From a virus: a DNA stretch of 28,416 bases. The stretch is from the IMG/VR virus record IMGVR_UViG_3300020180_000098, positions 1 to 28,416 of that record. The stretch is one strand, 5' to 3'. Each line of letters starts with the position of its first letter. Within the stretch, counting starts at the first letter, position 1. The notes beneath the pieces are model-generated. The model made no database searches, was not told where the DNA came from, and was given only the letters and a program-made list of their open reading frames with translations. Of this stretch, positions 17,402-27,868 are shown piece by piece. The translations under genes were made by a program, and so were the position numbers.

Positions 17402-17433
17402 AAAAAAAAGAGAGGCATTTTCAGCCCCTCTTT
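17402..17433 (-). terminator. Intrinsic terminator after the major capsid gene
   Basis: In sense orientation the arms are 17433-17424 and 17416-17407: AAAGAGGGGC pairs with GCCTCTCTTT, ten pairs with one G-U, around a seven-base loop, running directly into a U-tract encoded by the A run at 17402-17408. It lies 28 bases past the capsid stop, in the longest non-coding interval of the window (about 70 bases). Confidence 0.88.
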
Positions 17434-17460: not shown

Positions 17461-18339
17461 TTACGCTTTAGAAATTATTCTGCTTGCTGTCAAATCGTTC
17501 CACTCTGCCTCTCCATGGTACAAGTAACTAGAAACTTCGAACCCAAATGATGGATTGCCTCTTCCTACTTCAATCACCATAGTTCTCGGCGCGCTGTTTG
17601 CTGCTGTTGCAAAAGTGATCGCTGGATCAAATACGCAACCAACGTCATCAACACCACCGTTAGCGGTCGGTAGATTAAATGCTCTAAAGCACGTAACCCC
17701 TGGCATCTGTCCGATCAATCCGTTTGGTGCTGCATTATCTGTGCCTGGTGTACCCAACAAGCTTAAGAATATTGGCAAACCAAAAGCTGAAGCAGTTGTT
17801 GAAGTCATTTCTTTTTTTAGATTTAATTCTTGTTTTAAAGATAGTACTGCAACTAAATTACCAACTGCCCCGTTGCTGTTTGCAATTACGTTGTAAACTG
17901 CATCCATCAACTTATCTTTAGATAGGTCGGTATTTGTAGTACCGGCTGTGTTGGAAATGTTAGTAAACAATGAGCTTAACGCTGTATCCCAACGTCTAGC
18001 CAATGCCTGCCCTTGCTTTTCTGCAAGTACTGCCGGACTAGCTCCAATAAGGTCTGATGCTTCAACGGAAACAAAAGAACAAACTACTTCTTTCACTACT
18101 GAAACTTGTACCTTAGCAGTTTGGTACTGCGATAGAGTCGTATAATTCGCCCCTTCTGCTACTGCTGAGGTTGAGCTGGTTAGTGATCCGTCTCTCGATA
18201 CGGTAAAGATATCAGTCTTTGCCGGGATATCGAACCCTCTGCAAAGAGCTGGCATTACCGCTTTTTTTACTAGTGCTTGCGATAGCACATCTAAATATTC
18301 CTCACTTGCGTAAGCAAGTCCTGATTTAACTGTTGACAT
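17461..18339 (-). CDS. Major capsid protein (HK97-like fold, predicted)
   Basis: 292 aa; AAGGAAAA precedes the ATG. The N-terminus (SGLAYASEEYLDVLSQALVKKAVM) and the following TVSRDGSLTSSTSAVAEGANYTT resemble the strands and loop of HK97-type capsid subunits. VVCSFVSVEASDLIG and ALARRWDTALSSLF match the spine helix region, and the C-terminus FEVSSYLYHGEAEWNDLTASRI is typical of the same group. It directly follows the scaffold gene and precedes a strong terminator, as befits the most abundant product. No N-terminal prohead extension like the HK97 delta domain is seen, in line with a separate scaffold. Confidence 0.88.
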   Translation of the reverse strand: MSTVKSGLAYASEEYLDVLSQALVKKAVMPALCRGFDIPAKTDIFTVSRDGSLTSSTSAVAEGANYTTLSQYQTAKVQVSVVKEVVCSFVSVEASDLIGASPAVLAEKQGQALARRWDTALSSLFTNISNTAGTTNTDLSKDKLMDAVYNVIANSNGAVGNLVAVLSLKQELNLKKEMTSTTASAFGLPIFLSLLGTPGTDNAAPNGLIGQMPGVTCFRAFNLPTANGGVDDVGCVFDPAITFATAANSAPRTMVIEVGRGNPSFGFEVSSYLYHGEAEWNDLTASRIISKA

Positions 18340-19472: not shown

Positions 19473-20247
19473 AGCCTAGCTCCTTAGCTCTTTCTTGACT
19501 GATAGCCACCCACTGATGGCGGCAATTGTAACCACCTGCGTATATCATAACGTCCAAACCTTTCGGTGCATCTGGTGCGCTGTTTAATTCTTGTATTTCT
19601 TCAAGTGTATATATTGCTGGATCTCTATCTAATACTTTCTGGCAAAACGGTCTTGTAATATCGTCACTCGGGCCGCGGTAAACAAATAGTTCTAAGCCTA
19701 GTTCTTTAGCTTTGTTCGCTGATACGGCGCGAGAGAATCCGGATAATAAAGTATCTACTTCTGTCTTTATTTGAGACTCTAAAACGTTCGTACTTTTTAA
19801 TAATATTTCGCGCACATTGGGTCTTTCCCCTGCTAAAACACCGCGCATTAAAGAGCTGGCAACATCATCAATATATGGATTAATTAATCTGGTAACTTTC
19901 TTGTAATCAAAATTTATAAGCTCGTCCACGACTGCTTTATCTGCACCGCTAAAGGCTTTCTCTATTCCTACTATTGAAAATTGTTTTTTTAAGAAACGAA
20001 TTTCATCGCCGTAAGCTTCTTGAATTTGCTTAACTACACCTTCTAGCCCCTGGTCTATTAGTCCTTGCTGTAACCCTGCTAGTACCGCTAATTGCCCCTG
20101 TAAATCTTTCCCTTCTAAATTAGTTAGTGCTGGTATTTGCGTATCTAAAAATCTTCCTAACCGACTTAAAAAAAGCTTAAGGTTTTTAGCCTTTATTTTT
20201 TCGTTTATCTTAATGTTATCTGTTATTAGATCATTAAGCTTACCCAC
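19462..20247 (-). CDS. Minor head protein, Mu gpF / SPP1 gp7-like
   Basis: 261 aa, starting at a GTG (20245-20247) with AGAGG six bases upstream and overlapping the portal stop. The C-terminal ~65 residues hold the family signature: YRGPSDDITRPFCQKVLDRDP, then GGYNCRHQWVAI near residue 240, with the paired Cys and His thought to bind metal. The N-terminal ~190 residues are helical. In SPP1 and Mu these proteins bind the portal, enter the procapsid with it, and help DNA ejection. Gene order portal-gpF-gpG agrees. Confidence 0.85.
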   Translation of the reverse strand: MGKLNDLITDNIKINEKIKAKNLKLFLSRLGRFLDTQIPALTNLEGKDLQGQLAVLAGLQQGLIDQGLEGVVKQIQEAYGDEIRFLKKQFSIVGIEKAFSGADKAVVDELINFDYKKVTRLINPYIDDVASSLMRGVLAGERPNVREILLKSTNVLESQIKTEVDTLLSGFSRAVSANKAKELGLELFVYRGPSDDITRPFCQKVLDRDPAIYTLEEIQELNSAPDAPKGLDVMIYAGGYNCRHQWVAISQERAKELGYGD

Positions 20248-21763
20248 CTAATGCCTCTGCTACTGCTGCGTTCTGTGTCTCCGGCGGCTCTACTTTGCTA
20301 CCTGCCTCCAAAGATTTTAATGCTATTTTTAAACCTTCTTTAGATAGATCCATTTTATACACTGCTTTTTTTAGTGCTTCTTTTTGAATATCTGGATACT
20401 GCCCTATCAGGTCTCTGAACATCGAGTAAACCTTAATAAATGAGTCTAAATCATTTGTATTAATGTCTTTATTGATTTCATAAGTTAAATCTTTAGGTGC
20501 ATTTCTAGAGTAAGAGGCATAGTTAATCAAGGCTTCGTTTGTATGATTCTCGATGTCTTCTAAGGTCGATTGTATTAGGGCTATAGTGTTAGATTTTTCT
20601 TCCAATAAGCTATCTGCTGCCTGCACTAATTTAGAGTCACCCGATAGCATTCTGAGTTGATTTAGCCCTAGTTTAAAAGCGTTGCTGATACTGTCCGCCT
20701 CTGCTCTCTCGTGTGCTGCTGTGTCTACTGGGTCAACTGTCACTACTGATGAACCTGGCGGTAGTATTATCCAAGAAGTCTCATTGTTGTAACCTATATC
20801 GTCAACTTCGCCACTTGCCCCCGGAATAATAAAGGTTTTTTGATATCCCTGATTATGTAAAATATTATCTTTGCTCGACCTCAAATTATGATATCTCAAA
20901 GTTTCCTGACAGACATCTTTAATCCAAGAAACGTCTTGTAGAATTGCTATAGGTACTTGCTGTAATTGTGTTAGTTCTGCTTCTTGCTCTATCCATTGAG
21001 TAGAGTCTATCAGCTCCCCCCCTGTGATTTCTGGTCGCATCGAACCTTCTTTTTTCTCGGCTCTATAAATTCGTCTAATAACTTGATTGTTGAGCATCGA
21101 ATAAGATCTTGACATTCTGTAAATTTCTGGCTCTTGCGTTTCGTCTTCACGCTCCTGTATTTCATCGTAAACATAACGACCAAACTTTAGCTTACCTGCG
21201 CTATCGCCTCGTCCTACTCGTTGCCAATCGACAAAGGATAAAGGATTTATAGCAGTAAGAAACGCCCTAGCCCCTTGCTCTTGCGCCTGTGCTTGAGTAA
21301 GGGCTGTATGTTTAATCGAGTCGGCAAAGACTACGCTTTTGCCATAAATCAAATAAGGCTCTGCAATTTTCGTTTTAATAAATGAGGGTAGACTTGTATT
21401 TTCACCGTCTATATCGTCGTACTGCTTGCCTAAGAAACTTAATAAACCTGCGCTTGCTTTGCCTTCACCTTTAAAAAAGAATGATATCAAAAGACTTGTT
21501 ATGATTTCGGGTAGGTTTAAATATCTAGTTCTGTTTCTTCTTCTAGCTAAATGCTTAGACCCTTTTGCGTTGGGAAGCTCCCCAGTTTTGCTTTCTTCTA
21601 TGGCATGAAGCCATAGGTAGGCTGGATTTCTGCACATAACATCATGACGCCCCTCGTACATGTCTTTAATTAGCTGATATTCTTCTCTTGACCAAACGTA
21701 TTCAGGATTTAGGTACAGTGTTTTGCTCAAATTGCTCTTTTTATAAATTGTTAATTCCGACAA
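20240..21763 (-). CDS. Portal protein
   Basis: 507 aa. The first usable start is a TTG at 21763 (after an in-frame TAG upstream and no ATG until residue 35); it lies inside the terminase end and an AAGAAGG touches it, so the true start could be this or slightly further on. Portal features include YLNLPEIITSLLISFFFKG (about 80-98), IAEPYLIYGKSVVFAD for the wing, and a long helical region at about 355-430 (EADSISNAFKLGLNQLRMLSG) for stem and crown. The C-terminus ends in an acidic/Ala-rich tail. It forms the dodecameric ring for DNA entry and exit. It sits between terminase and gpF genes. Confidence 0.85.
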   Translation of the reverse strand: MSELTIYKKSNLSKTLYLNPEYVWSREEYQLIKDMYEGRHDVMCRNPAYLWLHAIEESKTGELPNAKGSKHLARRRNRTRYLNLPEIITSLLISFFFKGEGKASAGLLSFLGKQYDDIDGENTSLPSFIKTKIAEPYLIYGKSVVFADSIKHTALTQAQAQEQGARAFLTAINPLSFVDWQRVGRGDSAGKLKFGRYVYDEIQEREDETQEPEIYRMSRSYSMLNNQVIRRIYRAEKKEGSMRPEITGGELIDSTQWIEQEAELTQLQQVPIAILQDVSWIKDVCQETLRYHNLRSSKDNILHNQGYQKTFIIPGASGEVDDIGYNNETSWIILPPGSSVVTVDPVDTAAHERAEADSISNAFKLGLNQLRMLSGDSKLVQAADSLLEEKSNTIALIQSTLEDIENHTNEALINYASYSRNAPKDLTYEINKDINTNDLDSFIKVYSMFRDLIGQYPDIQKEALKKAVYKMDLSKEGLKIALKSLEAGSKVEPPETQNAAVAEALGG

Positions 21764-23099
21764 CCTTCTTAGCTCTCGGTTTTTCTAGATTTTCAGATTT
21801 CGTTATTCTCCATAGTGCATAACCAAACGCGTCGCTCCAATGCGACCACATATCGTTTCTCTCTTTCTGTAAAATAAATGTACCAGGCACTAATTGAGTT
21901 TTTGAAAACGAATGATGCAAGTTTTGGCACGTAGTATCAACCTTGATCCTATCGTACGCCATAAGCGCATTCACTCTCTCCAATCTTGGTCTTACATCTG
22001 GATTGTCCGAGGGTACTTTTAAAACTATTTTTCCGTACCCAATGCTTTTTAGGTACTTAATTATATTATCGTAATCGCTGCCGTCGGTTTTCCAACTGCC
22101 ATGATTTCCCGATACGTCGCCGTCAATCTCTATTAGCGTATCCCCAAATATTTCCACTGGGTATTGATGCCCAAAGTCTGTAACAGCATCGAGTAAACCT
22201 TTAGCTTCTCCGTCACTTACTCCATGCACCTCAAACACTTCTCTTCTAGTGTATAGTTTCTCGTGGTAAAATCTTTGAAAGCATACCCAGGCAAGAGGCG
22301 ATTTATTAAAATCCCACGCTAAATTTAATGTACGTTTTGGGTCTTTGTATGTTTTAAATACTCTTACCCTAGCTTCTGAATATTCCCAGTATGCTGTCCC
22401 CTTTACAAAGTCGGCAAATTCACCAAGTGTATAACTTCTTTTCTTTGCTTCGTCATGTCCATAAGCTTGTAAAACTTCTTCTACGTAGCCCGGTCTTATA
22501 AATTTATTATCGGCAGTGTGAAGAATAAACCTAACTTTGTTAAGTTTCTCGTCTACCCCTTCCGGAAAATCTGCTAGCTTTCTCCAATGTGTATCCCCTT
22601 CTGGTGTGCCTTCTAATAGCCATTGCAACCTATTTGATTTAGGCGATCTCATACGCCCGGTAAGCTTGCCAAAAGCTGTCTCTTTTAATAATCCTGGCTC
22701 TGTCACCCATATATGAGTGATGTTTGAACCTACTAAATTCTGCGCTTTTTCTGCTGACCTAAAACTTATTGTTACGTTATTTTTAAAAACTATTTTTGGT
22801 CGTCCTGAGGTATTAAGTTTATAGTCTTCCCCCTCGTGCATGTTGTAGATCTTCTCTAAGATTTCTACAATCGTCGTAATGCATGGATCTTCTATCTGGG
22901 CGTACGTGGGAGCAATCACCCAACTAGTAGAGTTCGGAGCATTATTAATTTCTAATGCTAGATAGAGGTGCCAAATTGCTGCGCCCCAACTGCCGCCGGC
23001 TCCTAAGCCTTTAGTAATATGAAACTTTCTAAATGGTGTGTTGTCCTGTAAAATCTTGTGCGTCCACCATGGAATGAGAGACTTAAGCTTTTCACCCAT
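21741..23099 (-). CDS. Terminase large subunit (ATPase-nuclease)
   Basis: 452 aa. It packages DNA into the procapsid and cuts concatemers. ATPase part: a P-loop-like segment KGLGAGGSWGAA at 30-41, adenine-side region WVIAPTYAQIED at 60-71, Walker B-like HIWVTEP at 129-135 with Glu134, and coupling motif LLEGTPEG at 161-168. Nuclease part: AWDFN with Asp263, GDTLIEIDGDVSG with Asp320 and Asp328, and WSDAFGYALW with Asp423, the three-acidic RNase H-type site. Odd points: Lys is missing at the usual P-loop place (Gly36; GGC GGC AGT codons) and Walker B has Thr where Asp is usual. Start overlaps the small subunit gene by eight bases. Confidence 0.92.
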   Translation of the reverse strand: MGEKLKSLIPWWTHKILQDNTPFRKFHITKGLGAGGSWGAAIWHLYLALEINNAPNSTSWVIAPTYAQIEDPCITTIVEILEKIYNMHEGEDYKLNTSGRPKIVFKNNVTISFRSAEKAQNLVGSNITHIWVTEPGLLKETAFGKLTGRMRSPKSNRLQWLLEGTPEGDTHWRKLADFPEGVDEKLNKVRFILHTADNKFIRPGYVEEVLQAYGHDEAKKRSYTLGEFADFVKGTAYWEYSEARVRVFKTYKDPKRTLNLAWDFNKSPLAWVCFQRFYHEKLYTRREVFEVHGVSDGEAKGLLDAVTDFGHQYPVEIFGDTLIEIDGDVSGNHGSWKTDGSDYDNIIKYLKSIGYGKIVLKVPSDNPDVRPRLERVNALMAYDRIKVDTTCQNLHHSFSKTQLVPGTFILQKERNDMWSHWSDAFGYALWRITKSENLEKPRAKKVVGINNL

Positions 23100-23454
23100 C
23101 TTCTTTTAATCTTTCTGGCTTGTCTTCTGCTTGTAAGATTATTGTTTTCTTTTCTTCTTTTGTTTCTAAATCTTGATCTGTTTTCTCGCGCCACTGTAAG
23201 CGAGTTTTGCAAAGAAATATTATCATTGCGGTGTTCCCCTTACTTGCTGCTCCGAATGCCCACCCTGCAACTTTAGCGTTAGCAATAGCTATGCCTCGCT
23301 TGAGTTCTGTTTTAAAATATTTCTGGATCGTACATTCGCCGCATTCCATAATCGTGGCTATTTGCTCGGCTGGTAATCCGATCCCTGCAAGAGATTCAAC
23401 TTTTGCTTTCTCTTCTTTTGTGGCGTTTGAGTATTTATGTGGTTTCGGTGCCAT
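23092..23454 (-). CDS. Terminase small subunit (putative)
   Basis: 120 aa; GAGG lies six bases before the ATG. The N-terminus has a helix-turn-helix-like part at about 13-50 (VESLAGIGLPAEQIATIMECGECTIQKYF), followed by GIAIANAKVAGWAFGAASKGNTAMIIFLCKTRLQWRE (51-88 region), a pattern familiar from small terminases of this type. The C-terminus is charged (EEKKTII, then KPERLKED) and would bind the large subunit. It recognises the packaging site on concatemeric DNA. It overlaps the methyltransferase gene by 20 bases and the large terminase gene by eight. Confidence 0.82.
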   Translation of the reverse strand: MAPKPHKYSNATKEEKAKVESLAGIGLPAEQIATIMECGECTIQKYFKTELKRGIAIANAKVAGWAFGAASKGNTAMIIFLCKTRLQWREKTDQDLETKEEKKTIILQAEDKPERLKEDG

Positions 23455-24559
23455 TGAATACCTCGCCGTTGATTTTGCATATAAATTCTTTATTTGTTGC
23501 TATGCAATGCTTTTGATAACGCTCTAAGATTACTTGGCAGTATTTAGGCTCTAGTTCCATTCCGTAGCACGTACGATTTAGTTGATCGGCGGCTATTAGC
23601 GTTGTGCCTGAGCCAAGGAAGGGATCATATACTGTTGAGAATTTAAAGCCGCTTAACATTTGCGTAAATGCTTTTAAGTTTTTAGTCAATCCATGTTTTT
23701 CTTGCGTGTTTTTTGGTGCATCTATAATGCTGGGGTAGTATCCTTTTTCGCTAAAAGATCCCTTAGCGTTGTCACAATCAAATATCGTGTCTTTGTTATT
23801 AAAATAAAATATATTTTTATGTACGTAATAAGGCACCTTCTTATTTAACATGCTTGACGGTACGTGCTGATTCCAAACTAAATCAAAACAAAATGACAAG
23901 TTAACATTTTTGTAAACTTCAAATCCTTGTTTGATGCTGGTCATTAAAAGCAAGTGGTTGCATTCTCCGATTGCGGCTATTACTTGATTAGCGTCTAGTT
24001 CGTAAGGAGGATCGGTAACTACAAAGTCACCTATTTGATTATTTTCCGTCGTACTATCACCGCACAATACCCGATGATTCCCAAGCTCTATTAGATCGCC
24101 TAATTTGAGGTAAGTTTCGTCTGGTAGCTCTCCCCCTCCGTCGTCTTCAACTATTTCTGCGTTGGTGTTGCTGTCTAGTAAATCTCTTAGAGAGTCTAAC
24201 CCCCACTCTTCTAGATCTAAGCCGTTATCCTCTAGAAACCCAAGCTCTAAATGTAAATTGTCAAATTGCCAGGTTGAATCATTTTGCAATTTGTTGTCTA
24301 AAATCCTATATGCTTTTTTCTGCACTTCCGTTAGCCCTGTGATTTTGTATGAAGGCACTTTGTCTAGATTTAAAGACTTGGCTGCATATAGACGACCATG
24401 ACCGACTAGCACTATATTATTTTCGTCAATTACTATAGGCTGATTAAATCCAAATTCCTTTATAGAGCATGCAATCCTGTTGATCTGCTCATCACTGTGA
24501 TTTCTGTTGTTAAATTCATAAGCGGTTATTAAATGCGTTTCAATGTCCGTAATTTGCAT
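23435..24559 (-). CDS. ParB-like domain fused to DNA N6-adenine/N4-cytosine methyltransferase
   Basis: 374 aa. Residues 1-90 form a ParB/sulfiredoxin-like domain: SIKEFGFNQPIVID, then GHGRLYAAKSL at 53-63. Residues ~150-350 are an amino-methyltransferase: LGDLIELGNHRVLCGDST leader at 153-170, motif IV DPPY at 183-186, an HGLTKNL motif (289-295) in the place of HPTQKP, and motif I DPFLGSGTT at 312-320. Motif IV before motif I marks the beta class. The enzyme would use S-adenosylmethionine to methylate DNA, likely to evade host restriction or mark the packaging site. No partner endonuclease is adjacent, so it appears to be an orphan. It lies directly before the terminase genes. Confidence 0.92.
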   Translation of the reverse strand: MQITDIETHLITAYEFNNRNHSDEQINRIACSIKEFGFNQPIVIDENNIVLVGHGRLYAAKSLNLDKVPSYKITGLTEVQKKAYRILDNKLQNDSTWQFDNLHLELGFLEDNGLDLEEWGLDSLRDLLDSNTNAEIVEDDGGGELPDETYLKLGDLIELGNHRVLCGDSTTENNQIGDFVVTDPPYELDANQVIAAIGECNHLLLMTSIKQGFEVYKNVNLSFCFDLVWNQHVPSSMLNKKVPYYVHKNIFYFNNKDTIFDCDNAKGSFSEKGYYPSIIDAPKNTQEKHGLTKNLKAFTQMLSGFKFSTVYDPFLGSGTTLIAADQLNRTCYGMELEPKYCQVILERYQKHCIATNKEFICKINGEVFNGTETT

Positions 24560-24565
24560 AAGTGT

Positions 24566-24766
24566 TTAATTTTGTTCATCTTTTTTTGGTATTGATTTCC
24601 CTTTTACAAGGTCGTCTAATTCTAAAATTTCCGGGGCTGCCATAGTATGCAATCTGGCTATGCCTAATGCTTGTAGGGCTAAAGATAAAGCTTTAATAGC
24701 CTCTGTGATTGAGTTCATTAATATAATTTCTCGCTGTTTCTTATCCCTAAGAGTCTCGGTAGTCAC
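24566..24766 (-). CDS. 66-aa unknown protein with GTG start
   Basis: Start GTG at 24764-24766 with AAAGGAGAA seven bases upstream, the better-supported choice over an internal ATG at about 24718. The product has a central Ala/Leu-rich helix (ITEAIKALSLALQALGIAR at about 20-38), which may be a membrane-lying or dimerising helix, and an acidic-then-basic C-terminus. It overlaps the end of the HTH gene by 20 bases and stops six bases before the ParB-methyltransferase gene. Function unknown. Confidence 0.6.
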   Translation of the reverse strand: MTTETLRDKKQREIILMNSITEAIKALSLALQALGIARLHTMAAPEILELDDLVKGKSIPKKDEQN

Positions 24767-25178
24767 TGAGTTTCTCCTTTCTTTGTATAAGGTCTCGCTT
24801 AATAAATTCTTCCTCTAAGTCTTCTTGTATCGCTGCAAGCCACCTATAGACTGTTCTCTCTGTAGTGTGAAGCACGATTGCCGCGTCTTTAGGAGTTAAC
24901 TTGATAAAGTTTTCCCCTATACTGCAAATTTCCCAAGCCTTTATAGCTTTTTTTGAATGAAATTTTTTAACCTTTTGGATCCCCTTTAGGATTCTAGCCC
25001 AAATAAGATGAGGATTTTCGCTTTCAAAGGGGAGATAGTTTCTTTTGCTAGATGTTTCTGTGTCTAGTAAATTAATTGATTTTTGTCGTGCTGGATTGTT
25101 AAACGAATAATAGGACAAGCAGTGTCCTACAGAATTGAATAGCGGTTTATACACCATCGTCATTTTTATTATGTTCAT
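24747..25178 (-). CDS. Helix-turn-helix protein, probable DNA-binding regulator
   Basis: 143 aa. The C-terminal half holds a helix-turn-helix: LTPKDAAIVLHTTERTVYRWLAAIQEDLEEEF at about 92-123, with TERTVYRWL as the recognition helix. The N-terminal half (about 1-55) is aromatic and Cys-containing without a known fold. The ATG at 25178 has no Shine-Dalgarno and could be one of three nearby in-frame ATGs (25178, 25163, 25157). It lies between the sigma factor block and the methyltransferase/terminase genes, so it might be a transcription regulator or an additional packaging-site binder. Confidence 0.65.
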   Translation of the reverse strand: MNIIKMTMVYKPLFNSVGHCLSYYSFNNPARQKSINLLDTETSSKRNYLPFESENPHLIWARILKGIQKVKKFHSKKAIKAWEICSIGENFIKLTPKDAAIVLHTTERTVYRWLAAIQEDLEEEFIKRDLIQRKEKLSDYRDS

Positions 25179-25191
25179 ATAAAACTTTGCC

Positions 25192-25220
25192 AGTATATAG
25201 AAAATATTAATTATTTTTAA
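25192..25220 (-). promoter_or_regulatory. Possible sigma70-type promoter before the HTH gene
   Basis: In sense orientation TTAAAA (25220-25215), a 17-base spacer and TATACT (25197-25192) stand in a 28-base gap, very near the ATG at 25178 that lacks a Shine-Dalgarno. The -35 match is poor and AT-rich DNA gives such matches by chance, so this is weak. Confidence 0.2.
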
Positions 25221-25623
25221 TTAGAAGCTTTAACAAGTCGAATTTAGATATTTCCGGTAGTTTTTGCTTCCTTGTCTTTAGCCCCTTCTTATCGTTTCGC
25301 CCTACATCCCCCTCGCTTGATAGATAGCTTATAATTGCCTTGTGATTTTCTTTAGGAAAGTCCGAGATTAAACCAAGGTACCAAAGCAACGATCTTTCTT
25401 GCGTTGAATAACTAAGCAACCAACCAACTGCATTTTTTTTCTGTCTCAAAGCGTACTCTGGTTTTTCTGCGCGCTGATAGCGTACGGATCTAGCGTCTGA
25501 TATAGCGCATAAAATCACGTTTATAATTAATCTTTTTTCTGGACAAAATGAGGGCAAACCTGATTTTTCTGCCTCTGTAATTACGGAATATAAATCTACT
25601 GATGTCTCGTATATTATTGTCAA
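25207..25623 (-). CDS. Unknown protein next to sigma factor gene
   Basis: 138 aa, overlapping the sigma factor stop by four bases (ATGA). The middle has EKRLIINVILCAISDARSVRYQRAE and AVGWLLSYSTQERSLLWYLGLISDFP (segment about 65-95). It resembles a small phage protein type with an A-x-x-W-L ... F-x-x-I-C pattern found near terminase or regulators, but the match is loose. The C-terminal ~45 residues are basic. Coupling to the sigma gene raises the idea of a sigma regulator (anti-sigma or cofactor). That is speculation; no zinc or membrane anti-sigma features are visible. Confidence 0.55.
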   Translation of the reverse strand: MTIIYETSVDLYSVITEAEKSGLPSFCPEKRLIINVILCAISDARSVRYQRAEKPEYALRQKKNAVGWLLSYSTQERSLLWYLGLISDFPKENHKAIISYLSSEGDVGRNDKKGLKTRKQKLPEISKFDLLKLLIKNN

Positions 25624-26192
25624 ATAGCCTCCTTGTATTCGTCGTATGTTTCTTTAAGTCTTTTAATTAGATTATTCTTTGCTCGGATCCTCCTTGATTT
25701 AACTGTTGGTATTGTGCTGTTTTGGTCTTTTGTCACCTGCGCTAGGGGGAGATGGCATGAGAATAAAGATTCTTTGTACTCTGGCTTTATTAAGTAAAGT
25801 ACGGTTTCTTTAAGTTTTTTCTTTAAAAAATAATCATATAAAATATTAGCGCTAAAGAGGTTGCTAGTTAGCTGTAGTATGTTAACTTCTTTTTGCAGTG
25901 CCTTTCTTCTCTCGTGCTTACTATTTAATCGCATGTACATATTGGCTTCATTCACCGCTACCCTATAAAGCCACGAAGCAAAGCTAGATTCAAATTTGAA
26001 TGTATGTATTTTTCTAAATAGTTTTAAAAAAACGATTTGGGTAACTTCTTCCGTCTGCTCTATGTTTTTAAGCATTTTCTTAAGCTGTCCGAAAACGTTG
26101 GAATAGCTTCTTTTATAGATTTCTTCAAACGCGCGCTCGTCTTTTGTGCCAATGTAGAGCTTTAACAATTCGTTAATTTCTAGTTTTTCCAT
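25620..26192 (-). CDS. Phage-encoded ECF-type RNA polymerase sigma factor
   Basis: 190 aa, the size of group IV (ECF) sigma factors. Region 2 spans about 20-95: AFEEIYKRSYSNVFGQL for 2.1, EEVTQIVFLKLFRKIHTF (48-65) for 2.2, and SSFASWLYRVAVNEANMYMR (69-88) for 2.3-2.4, matching the usual DxxQExFxxxW...F.aWLyriA.N pattern. Region 4 spans about 126-182: KPEYKESLFSCHLPLAQVTKD, then TVKSRRIRAKNNLIKRL, matching the S-x-x-TVKSRxxRA recognition helix. Regions 1.1 and 3 are absent. It would bind host core RNA polymerase and direct it to phage promoters. It begins inside the preceding nuclease gene and its stop overlaps the next gene. It stands at the head of the structural genes. Regulon not visible. 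Confidence 0.85.
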   Translation of the reverse strand: MEKLEINELLKLYIGTKDERAFEEIYKRSYSNVFGQLKKMLKNIEQTEEVTQIVFLKLFRKIHTFKFESSFASWLYRVAVNEANMYMRLNSKHERRKALQKEVNILQLTSNLFSANILYDYFLKKKLKETVLYLIKPEYKESLFSCHLPLAQVTKDQNSTIPTVKSRRIRAKNNLIKRLKETYDEYKEAI

Positions 26193-26526
26193 TTTTTATT
26201 TTTTCTCTTAAACACTTACCGGCTTTATAAACTCTATAAACGCCTTTAGGTTTTGTAATTCTAAATATTAAATCGGGGTAAAGGGCAGACAATATTTTAA
26301 CTCTAAGTATTGAGTCGTGGCGCTCAAATATGTAGCCCTTAAATTCTTCCACTATTTTTTTATTATTTTCTAGGTAGCTAAAATCAGCTGTGTATTTAAA
26401 GGTTTCGATGCTGTTGATAATTGCTTTAAATTCTACTTGGTGGCGTAGCTCGGTGATTACCTTAGCGGCTTGCAGTAGTTTGAGCTGCATGTATCTTACT
26501 AATTCCTGCTTAGATGATTTATTCAT
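26173..26526 (-). CDS. DUF1064-like PD-(D/E)XK nuclease
   Basis: 117 aa. The sequence follows the DUF1064 pattern: N-terminal helix QELVRYMQLKLLQAAKVITELRHQVEF (7-33), a strand with YTADFSYLENN (Asp48), KKIVEEFKGY with Glu61-x-Lys63, and ALYPDLIFRI. Asp48 and Glu61-x-Lys63 form the D...ExK catalytic core of the PD-(D/E)XK superfamily. The usual N-terminal G-x-x-K/N lead is short here, so this version is compact. These phage enzymes are thought to be structure-specific or recombination endonucleases. Start overlaps the previous gene by eight bases and the stop overlaps the sigma factor start by 20 bases. Confidence 0.7.
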   Translation of the reverse strand: MNKSSKQELVRYMQLKLLQAAKVITELRHQVEFKAIINSIETFKYTADFSYLENNKKIVEEFKGYIFERHDSILRVKILSALYPDLIFRITKPKGVYRVYKAGKCLREKIKNGKTRN

Positions 26527-26871: not shown

Positions 26872-27041
26872 GATTCGCCTTCTCCTAAAATAAATTCTCT
26901 AACCTCGTCCAGTGATGACAGCAAACCTTGAAGTAAGCCAGCGTGAAATGTATCGCCTGGTATTAGTTTTATGTATGAAATTTCTTTATCTATAAACTCT
27001 AATATTTCTTCTATTGTCTTAACTGGTTTTTCTTCGCTCAT
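26868..27041 (-). CDS. 57-aa acidic protein
   Basis: The frame runs from the ATG at 27041 to the TGA at 26868-26870, with ATGA overlaps at both ends. The product starts MSEEKPVKTIEEILEFI, contains LIPGDTFHAGLLQGLLSSLDEV, and is predicted helical and acidic. Gene packing supports it: it fills exactly the space between two genes. Function unknown. Confidence 0.6.
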   Translation of the reverse strand: MSEEKPVKTIEEILEFIDKEISYIKLIPGDTFHAGLLQGLLSSLDEVREFILGEGES

Positions 27042-27283
27042 AATACCTCTTTGTAAATAAAAATCTCTAACCCCTGATAGCTAGTAGGATCTCCCACCGT
27101 ATAAGGCTCTGCACCATAAATTAATTCTTTATGCGCGGTTGTTGTTATGCAATCTTTGATATCTCCCCATGTCTCCATTGCCCCAAACTCAGATTTCAAA
27201 CCGTCCTTAATTAACAATTGATACTGTTTTACTCGTGTCATAAATCTTCCTATATTAAATTGATAATGTGTTGTTATTTTCAT
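27038..27283 (-). CDS. 81-aa unknown protein of the accessory cluster
   Basis: Starts at the ATG at 27283, with AAGGGATTC in front and an ATGA overlap with the gene before. It begins MKIT like its two neighbours upstream, but only because the shared leader covers the first codons; beyond that, no similarity is visible. Contains GAMETWGDIKDCITTTAHKE and a C-terminus LEIFIYKEVL. No known motif. Confidence 0.6.
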   Translation of the reverse strand: MKITTHYQFNIGRFMTRVKQYQLLIKDGLKSEFGAMETWGDIKDCITTTAHKELIYGAEPYTVGDPTSYQGLEIFIYKEVL

Positions 27284-27320
27284 GAATCCCTTCTTTTAAT
27301 TAAACTTAATCCGTATTGCA
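27272..27320 (-). repeat. Gene-boundary repeat, copy 1 (49 bp)
   Basis: Covers the end of paralog B and the start of the next gene. Nearly identical to 27572-27618 apart from one T in a T-run. A shorter match (19 bp) is at 27857-27875. It contains the Shine-Dalgarno AAGGGATTC and ATGAAAATAAC start. Confidence 0.9.
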
Positions 27321-27582
27321 AGTACCCGGGCATCGCTGCCTCGCGAGTAATATAATCGGCGTACTTAAGAGACTTGCGGACTTTATATTCATATTCGAGG
27401 TATCGCCTAGTTTGCTCCATGCTAAATGATTCCCTCATTAGCCAGTAAGCCCAATAGTGCCGCTCTTCTTTTATTAGCGTGTTCATTAGGTCGACCAACT
27501 CTTTTGACTTTTGCTTTTTAAACCACTTGATAAACTCATCGCGTGCCTTGCAGGCTTTAAGAAAGCCCAAAGTTATTTTCAT
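27280..27582 (-). CDS. Tandem paralog B, 100-aa unknown protein
   Basis: 100 aa. It aligns along its length with the product of 27557-27868: MKIT.FLK, a central W-F/Y-K-K-Q segment, SKELVDL versus SKEVMDL, LIKEERHYWAYWLMR versus LIKQKQHVWAEWLMR, and a C-terminal QYGLSLIK. The N-terminal FLKACKARDEFIKWF is like a small protein type (F-L-K-x-x-x-A-C-x-x-x-x-x-W-F) that I recall from bacteria and phages, function unknown. It ends RRDS with an ATGA overlap, which I take to be the original end of the family here. AAGGG lies before the start. Confidence 0.7.
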   Translation of the reverse strand: MKITLGFLKACKARDEFIKWFKKQKSKELVDLMNTLIKEERHYWAYWLMRESFSMEQTRRYLEYEYKVRKSLKYADYITREAAMPGYLQYGLSLIKRRDS

Positions 27583-27868
27583 GAATCCCTTCTTTAATTA
27601 AACTTAATCCGTATTGCATAACCAAATCTCGAATATACGCATGAGAATATATCGTAGTTCTTAAAAGCTTAGAATCGTAATCCCTGTACCGTATAAATTG
27701 ATCTGGATTAAAAGCATTCCTCATTAACCATTCAGCCCAAACATGCTGCTTTTGTTTTATTAGCGCTTTTAATAAATCCATTACTTCTTTTGACTCTTGT
27801 TTTCTATACCAATTTAGACCCTCGTCACAGGCATCTTTTTCTTTAAGAAATTTTAGTGTTATTTTCAT
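27557..27868 (-). CDS. Tandem paralog A, 103 aa, with altered C-terminus
   Basis: Paralog of the 27280-27582 gene (see that entry for shared blocks). It reads 26 bases into its neighbour. Where the paralog ends LIKRRDS, this copy reads LIKEGIHENNFGLS, because the 3' boundary repeat has three T in a run (27591-27595 region) where the other copy has four. The result is an extra tail encoded by the leader and first codons of the next gene. An AGGGGATTC precedes the ATG. Function unknown. The helical WLMR region suggests a small all-alpha fold. Confidence 0.7.
   Translation of the reverse strand: MKITLKFLKEKDACDEGLNWYRKQESKEVMDLLKALIKQKQHVWAEWLMRNAFNPDQFIRYRDYDSKLLRTTIYSHAYIRDLVMQYGLSLIKEGIHENNFGLS
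27572..27618 (-). repeat. Gene-boundary repeat, copy 2 (47 bp)
   Basis: Covers the end of paralog A and the start of paralog B. Compared with copy 1 it lacks one T of the run, which shifts the reading frame of the upstream gene's last codons. Left by tandem duplication or homogenised by recombination. Confidence 0.9.

Follow-up and report, generated by a model that had tools for sequence, protein, structure and literature searches.

A divergent ECF-type sigma factor gene ahead of the packaging genes in a probable tailed-phage fragment

ECF sigma factors of phages and the gene order of the window

The gp36 protein of phage phiEco32 is an ECF sigma factor that has been described as recognizing middle and late promoters together with the host RNA polymerase (PMC4281155, PMC3594737). 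Relatives of gp36 have likewise been described for middle and late phage promoters (PMC4331800, PMC7881722), and ECF sigma factors are known in Kuravirus-type phages (PMC4281155, PMC7881722). In crAss-like phages, ECF sigma factors are annotated as RNA polymerase sigma-W factor. Xpf of PBSX is listed as a group IV protein with the sigma2-sigma4 architecture (PMC10141391), and the PBSX late genes are regulated by Xpf according to PMC8347963, which cites McDonnell et al. 1994. The genes of a PBSX-like region are arranged in the order of resolvase, XtrA, sigma factor (Xpf homologue), TerS, TerL, and portal (PMC8347963, Table 1), and RecU, an HTH protein, and Xpf are encoded consecutively in phage SpaA1 (see also PMC3398947). 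The original prediction, which regarded an ECF-type protein in a compact structural cluster as unusual, was overstated, since crAss-like, Kuravirus-type, and other phages have ECF sigma factors and Xpf occupies the same slot. Phage ECF sigma factors were already known, and the protein described here is a divergent further example.

We analyzed a virus record of IMG/VR (IMGVR_UViG_3300020180_000098), and its whole stretch of 28,416 bases is referred to as the window. The sequence probably represents only part of the genome of an uncultured tailed phage. Because one gene runs off the end of this 28.4-kb record, compactness is not claimable for the genome. All assigned genes are located on the minus strand. 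In the direction of transcription, several small unknown genes are followed by a 75-aa ORF and the genes for a DUF1064 protein, the sigma factor, and a 138-aa orphan; then by those for an HTH protein (143 aa), a 66-aa ORF, a ParB-methyltransferase, TerS, TerL, and the portal protein; and then by more head genes, the probable capsid gene, a strong terminator, and the tail and lysis genes. The minus-strand run is unbroken from the DUF1064 gene via the sigma gene to the capsid gene. The features used in this study are as follows.

26173..26526, minus strand: DUF1064 / Holliday-junction-resolvase-like protein, 117 aa (Pfam PF06356, 1.8e-5, above cut-off; PHROG 190, 6e-13)
25620..26192, minus strand: ECF-type sigma factor, 190 aa, ATG start (sigma2, residues ~1-97; linker, ~98-113; sigma4, ~113-186)
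25207..25623, minus strand: 138-aa orphan, with a TTG start that overlaps the sigma stop codon by 4 bases and AAGGAGG before the start
25179..25206, minus strand: non-coding gap of 28 bases, directly upstream of the HTH gene, candidate late promoter site
24747..25178, minus strand: helix-turn-helix protein, 143 aa, first gene past the gap (HTH_23, 1.3e-4, under the Pfam cut-off)
23435..24559, minus strand: ParB-domain DNA methyltransferase, 374 aa (PF01555, 1e-11; PHROG 498, 2e-71)
23092..23454, minus strand: terminase small subunit, 120 aa (PHROG 309, 2e-13)
21741..23099, minus strand: terminase large subunit, 452 aa (PF03237, 5e-7; Kagunavirus and Pelagibacter phage terminases, 1e-10 to 1e-11)
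20240..21763, minus strand: portal protein, 507 aa (PHROG 145, 6e-24)
17461..18339, minus strand: probable major capsid protein, 292 aa, assigned by position only, with no family match and with a near-identical relative in a second contig (L002)
17407..17433, minus strand: terminator hairpin 3' of the probable capsid gene (stem of 10 pairs and a T-run)

The sigma gene was originally predicted to head the structural operon. It does lie ahead of the packaging and capsid genes, but the run begins before it, as the DUF1064 gene is located upstream, and four genes (138-aa orphan, HTH, 66-aa ORF, and ParB-methyltransferase) separate it from TerS. The sigma gene begins inside the DUF1064 gene, and the two share the final 20 bases of the latter. 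In addition to its match to PHROG 190 (Holliday junction resolvase), the DUF1064 protein has retained the nuclease-like pattern ADF...EEFKG, and it may be involved in DNA processing ahead of packaging. Searches of PHROGs, NCBIfam, phage records, and viral contigs found no relatives of the 138-aa orphan, and its hits in Pfam and PDB were at chance level only.

The phages with a gp36-type protein, which are Kuravirus and its relatives (phiEco32, SU10, 7-11, GAP52, and Privateer), carry an ECF-type phage sigma factor as the window does, and the ECF sigma factor of GAP52 is a structural match to the window protein. These phages are podophages of the C3 morphotype, with a genome of 77 kb in SU10, and their sigma gene is located among the middle genes and not right before the terminase genes as it is here. 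The promoter core of phiEco32, AATGTATA, is a feature of that phage that is missing in the window, the non-coding gaps of which were searched for it.

The ECF sigma factors of crAss-like phages have PHROG 1740 and the ECF domain layout in common with the window protein, at approximately 24-34% identity, and PHROG 1740 is also matched by other viral ECF proteins. The crAss-like genomes are approximately 92-104 kb, and their sigma genes neighbor tmRNA and hypothetical genes, unlike that of the window. In the two crAss-like sigma factors tested, region 4 matches Pfam, whereas region 4 of the window protein does not.

The Xpf proteins of PBSX, PBSX-like elements, and SpaA1 (PHROG 1190) resemble the window protein in being small sigma2-sigma4 proteins encoded next to a gene for a Holliday junction resolvase or RecU, and in the PBSX-like region the sigma gene precedes the TerS-TerL-portal-capsid genes, as in the window. 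However, the window sigma factor matches PHROG 1740 only, SpaA1 Xpf matches PHROG 1190, and the window sigma factor had no BLAST similarity to the N-terminal piece of the SpaA1 protein. In addition, the genes for the 138-aa orphan, the HTH protein, the 66-aa protein, and the methyltransferase are located between the sigma gene and TerS in the window, unlike in the Xpf elements. As the window protein is not Xpf by sequence, the common position is an argument for similar working, and not for common descent.

The bacterial SigW, RpoE, and AlgU proteins share the sigma2-sigma4 architecture with the window protein and match it in sequence and structure. The differences from these proteins are that no anti-sigma factor was identified in the window, that region 4 is shortened, and that the identity is approximately 20-30%.

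Regions 2 and 4 of the sigma factor

We confirmed the 190-aa ORF with its ATG start, and it encodes a real ECF-type sigma factor with two domains, sigma2 and sigma4. The locations of the two conserved regions are as follows.

25917..26150, minus strand: sigma region 2 (residues ~15-92; Pfam region 2 match at residues 26-90; 88 bits against a home-made region 2 profile)
25647..25799, minus strand: sigma region 4 (residues 132-182), divergent, 3 residues short from the first to the second helix

Region 2 was well matched, as originally predicted. Pfam Sigma70_r2 (PF04542) gave an E-value of 4e-11 and 43 bits (cut-off, 24), PHROG 1740 ("RNA polymerase sigma factor") matched residues 7-183 of the 190-aa protein at 4e-12, and NCBIfam TIGR02937 (sigma70-ECF) scored 45.7 bits, above the cut-off of 42.9. 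The sequence matches to AlgU, SigW, and RpoE in PDB were all 3e-7 or better. The region contains the core-binding motif E48xxQ52xxF55 and the −10 recognition and melting motif SSFASWLYRVAVN. In an alignment of 76 sequences, Q52 was invariant and F55, W74, and N81 were at least 90% conserved, and the core-binding and −10 positions are kept in the window sigma factor. We take the positions of E/DxxQxxF and SSFxxWLYRxAxN to be the contacts of ECF sigma factors with the beta' clamp and the −10 element. Assignment of the ORF to another HTH family was rejected because region 2 is unambiguous. Homology in region 2 is by itself no proof of activity. The predicted absence of regions 1.1 and 3 was also correct, as a protein of 190 aa leaves no space for them and its model holds only sigma2, the linker, and sigma4. 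The length lies within the range of approximately 160-210 aa expected of ECF (group IV) sigma factors.

Region 4 had likewise been described as well matched, and this description failed. The Pfam search of the 190-aa protein that matched Sigma70_r2 gave no match to Sigma70_r4 or Sigma70_r4_2, and neither did the searches with the last 91 aa and a 47-aa C-terminal piece, for which E-values of up to 10 were allowed. In the same test, all six of the other ECF-like proteins from phage collections matched region 4, with only that of L005 below the cut-off. Using the home-made profiles of regions 2 and 4, which were built from 77 relatives, region 4 scored 15 bits (members, at least 49; median, 74). 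None of the 1,667 scored shuffles reached this score, which was carried mostly by the recognition helix TVKSRRIRAKNNL. The gap of 3 residues between helices 1 and 2 of region 4 was absent from every relative printed.

AlphaFold2 with the alignment of 76 sequences gave a two-domain protein with a mean pLDDT of 91, whereas the sigma factor alone, without an alignment, gave a useless model (pLDDT 40). The modelled sigma2 was superimposed on region 2 of E. coli sigmaE at 1.7 Å over 94 residues (Z 15.5), and the modelled sigma4 on that of SigL (3hug) at 2.6 Å over 74 residues (Z 10.3). The modelled helices of region 4 span residues 137-147, 150-157, and 161-189, and the fold of region 4 is predicted to be complete despite its weak sequence match. 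The model is not independent proof, because the input alignment consisted of true ECF sigma factors and biases the model to their fold.

Relatives and phylogeny of the sigma factor

No close relatives of the sigma factor were found in IMG/VR or the phage records, in which the best long matches showed 22-33% identity; bacterial ECF proteins showed 28-33% identity across much of the length. When the sigma factor, terminase, 138-aa protein, portal, and capsid were used to search the viral contigs for close relatives, only L002 (IMGVR_UViG_3300020201_000261) was found. The capsid encoded on this 6-kb contig is 97% identical, indicating that a second contig of the collection belongs to this phage group; the contig stops short of the sigma gene. 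No closely related phage for comparison of the gene order was found in the phage records and viral contigs, and megablast of the 20-28 kb part gave no match in the phage records.

An alignment of eight diverse sigma factors was too divergent as a search query. The viral scans with smaller alignments detected ECF sigma factors in other phages, most of which were larger. Inspection of the listed ORFs, rather than a family search, recognized no terminase beside these sigma factors. A canonical ECF sigma factor of another uncultured phage (L010, 7962-8507) is encoded beside apparent ribonucleotide reductase genes and close to a gene for phage endonuclease I, which is a different layout.

In a phylogeny of 87 ECF proteins, the window sigma factor had an end branch of 2.24 and no supported neighbor. 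It joined other long phage branches and was flagged for long-branch attraction, and its placement is unreliable. The long end branch and the lack of a supported neighbor indicate a fast-evolving phage sigma factor and not a recent bacterial capture.

Candidate promoter region and proposed role

From the sigma gene to the probable capsid gene, only one non-coding gap, that at 25179-25206, reaches 20 bases, and it is thus the first place to seek the promoter targeted by the sigma factor. It contains a match of TTAAAA-17-TATACT that was not above chance, and scanning for sigma70-type promoters gave fewer hits than in shuffles. No motif common to the non-coding gaps was found beyond chance, a comparison of low power because the gaps are few.

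We consider it likely that the sigma factor is a late-gene activator of the phage that reprograms the host RNA polymerase. The sigma factor would be translated from an early or middle transcript together with the resolvase-like protein, and its region 2 would bind the host core RNA polymerase. The sigma-loaded polymerase would be directed to a single phage promoter or a small number of them, from which it would transcribe the genes from the HTH gene onward, namely those for packaging, capsid, tail, and lysis. We infer that the protein binds the core enzyme and uses phage promoters, as well as when it acts and where its target promoter lies; the role is supported by region 2, the predicted sigma4 fold, the gene order with its overlaps, and the single sizeable gap. 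The likeness of its slot to that of the Xpf homologue in the PBSX-like region, together with phiEco32 gp36, points by analogy in the same direction. The redirection of the host polymerase to late genes, as originally proposed, is consistent with the domain content and gene position, but no promoter with a shared motif above chance accompanied it, and this result and the divergent, shortened region 4 argue against an activator.

The protein could instead be an anti-host factor or appropriator that occupies the core polymerase or alters the use of host sigma factors, with a region 4 so decayed that the protein itself would recognize promoters barely or not at all. The contrast between the conserved region 2 (88 bits) and the weak, shortened region 4 (15 bits) would suit such a factor, as would the failure to find a phage promoter motif. 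We regard it as unlikely, since the recognition helix is preserved better than the rest of region 4 and exceeds all scored shuffles, the modelled sigma4 is complete, and the gene position beside the late genes suits an activator.

The sigma factor and the overlapping 138-aa orphan may also form a unit, in which the orphan would be an anti-sigma factor or a partner subunit that compensates for the shortened region 4. Genes of sigma and anti-sigma pairs are usually adjacent, and the overlap of stop and start codons and the strong AAGGAGG inside the sigma gene suggest co-expression. However, the orphan had no detectable relation to anti-sigma or sigma families in Pfam, PHROGs, and NCBIfam, and we consider such a unit quite unlikely. 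For the wider control unit originally proposed with the 138-aa and HTH proteins, the evidence consists of gene overlap and adjacency only. We give still less credence to a composite late transcription factor, in which a sigma factor with reduced region 4 would read mainly the −10 element and the 138-aa orphan or HTH protein would assist at −35. Finally, a captured bacterial ECF sigma factor that modulates stress or surface genes of the host, and not the phage late genes, would accord with the 28-33% matches to bacterial ECF proteins across much of the length and with the action of some phage-carried sigma factors, those of the sporulation type, on host programs (PMC9429907), but it is highly improbable given the very long branch, which no bacterial neighbor joins with support, and the overlaps that embed the gene in the phage operon.

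With the late-gene activator as the preferred reading, an uncultured tailed-phage lineage is added to the users of ECF sigma factors, probably for late gene control. The slot between resolvase and terminase suggests that different sigma lineages can fill it, PHROG 1190 in Xpf-type elements and PHROG 1740 here. As such regulators are established, the functional insight is modest.

Other observations were made in the window. The strong intrinsic terminator at 17407-17433 is located right behind the probable capsid gene, and capsid expression could exceed that of the downstream genes. A probable tail fibre protein with collagen-like repeats is encoded at 1-726. Three successive small genes at 27038-27868 (103, 100, and 81 aa) have near-identical starts (GGGATTCATGAAAATAAC or close to it), and the 103-aa and 100-aa proteins resemble paralogues, which points to tandem duplication.
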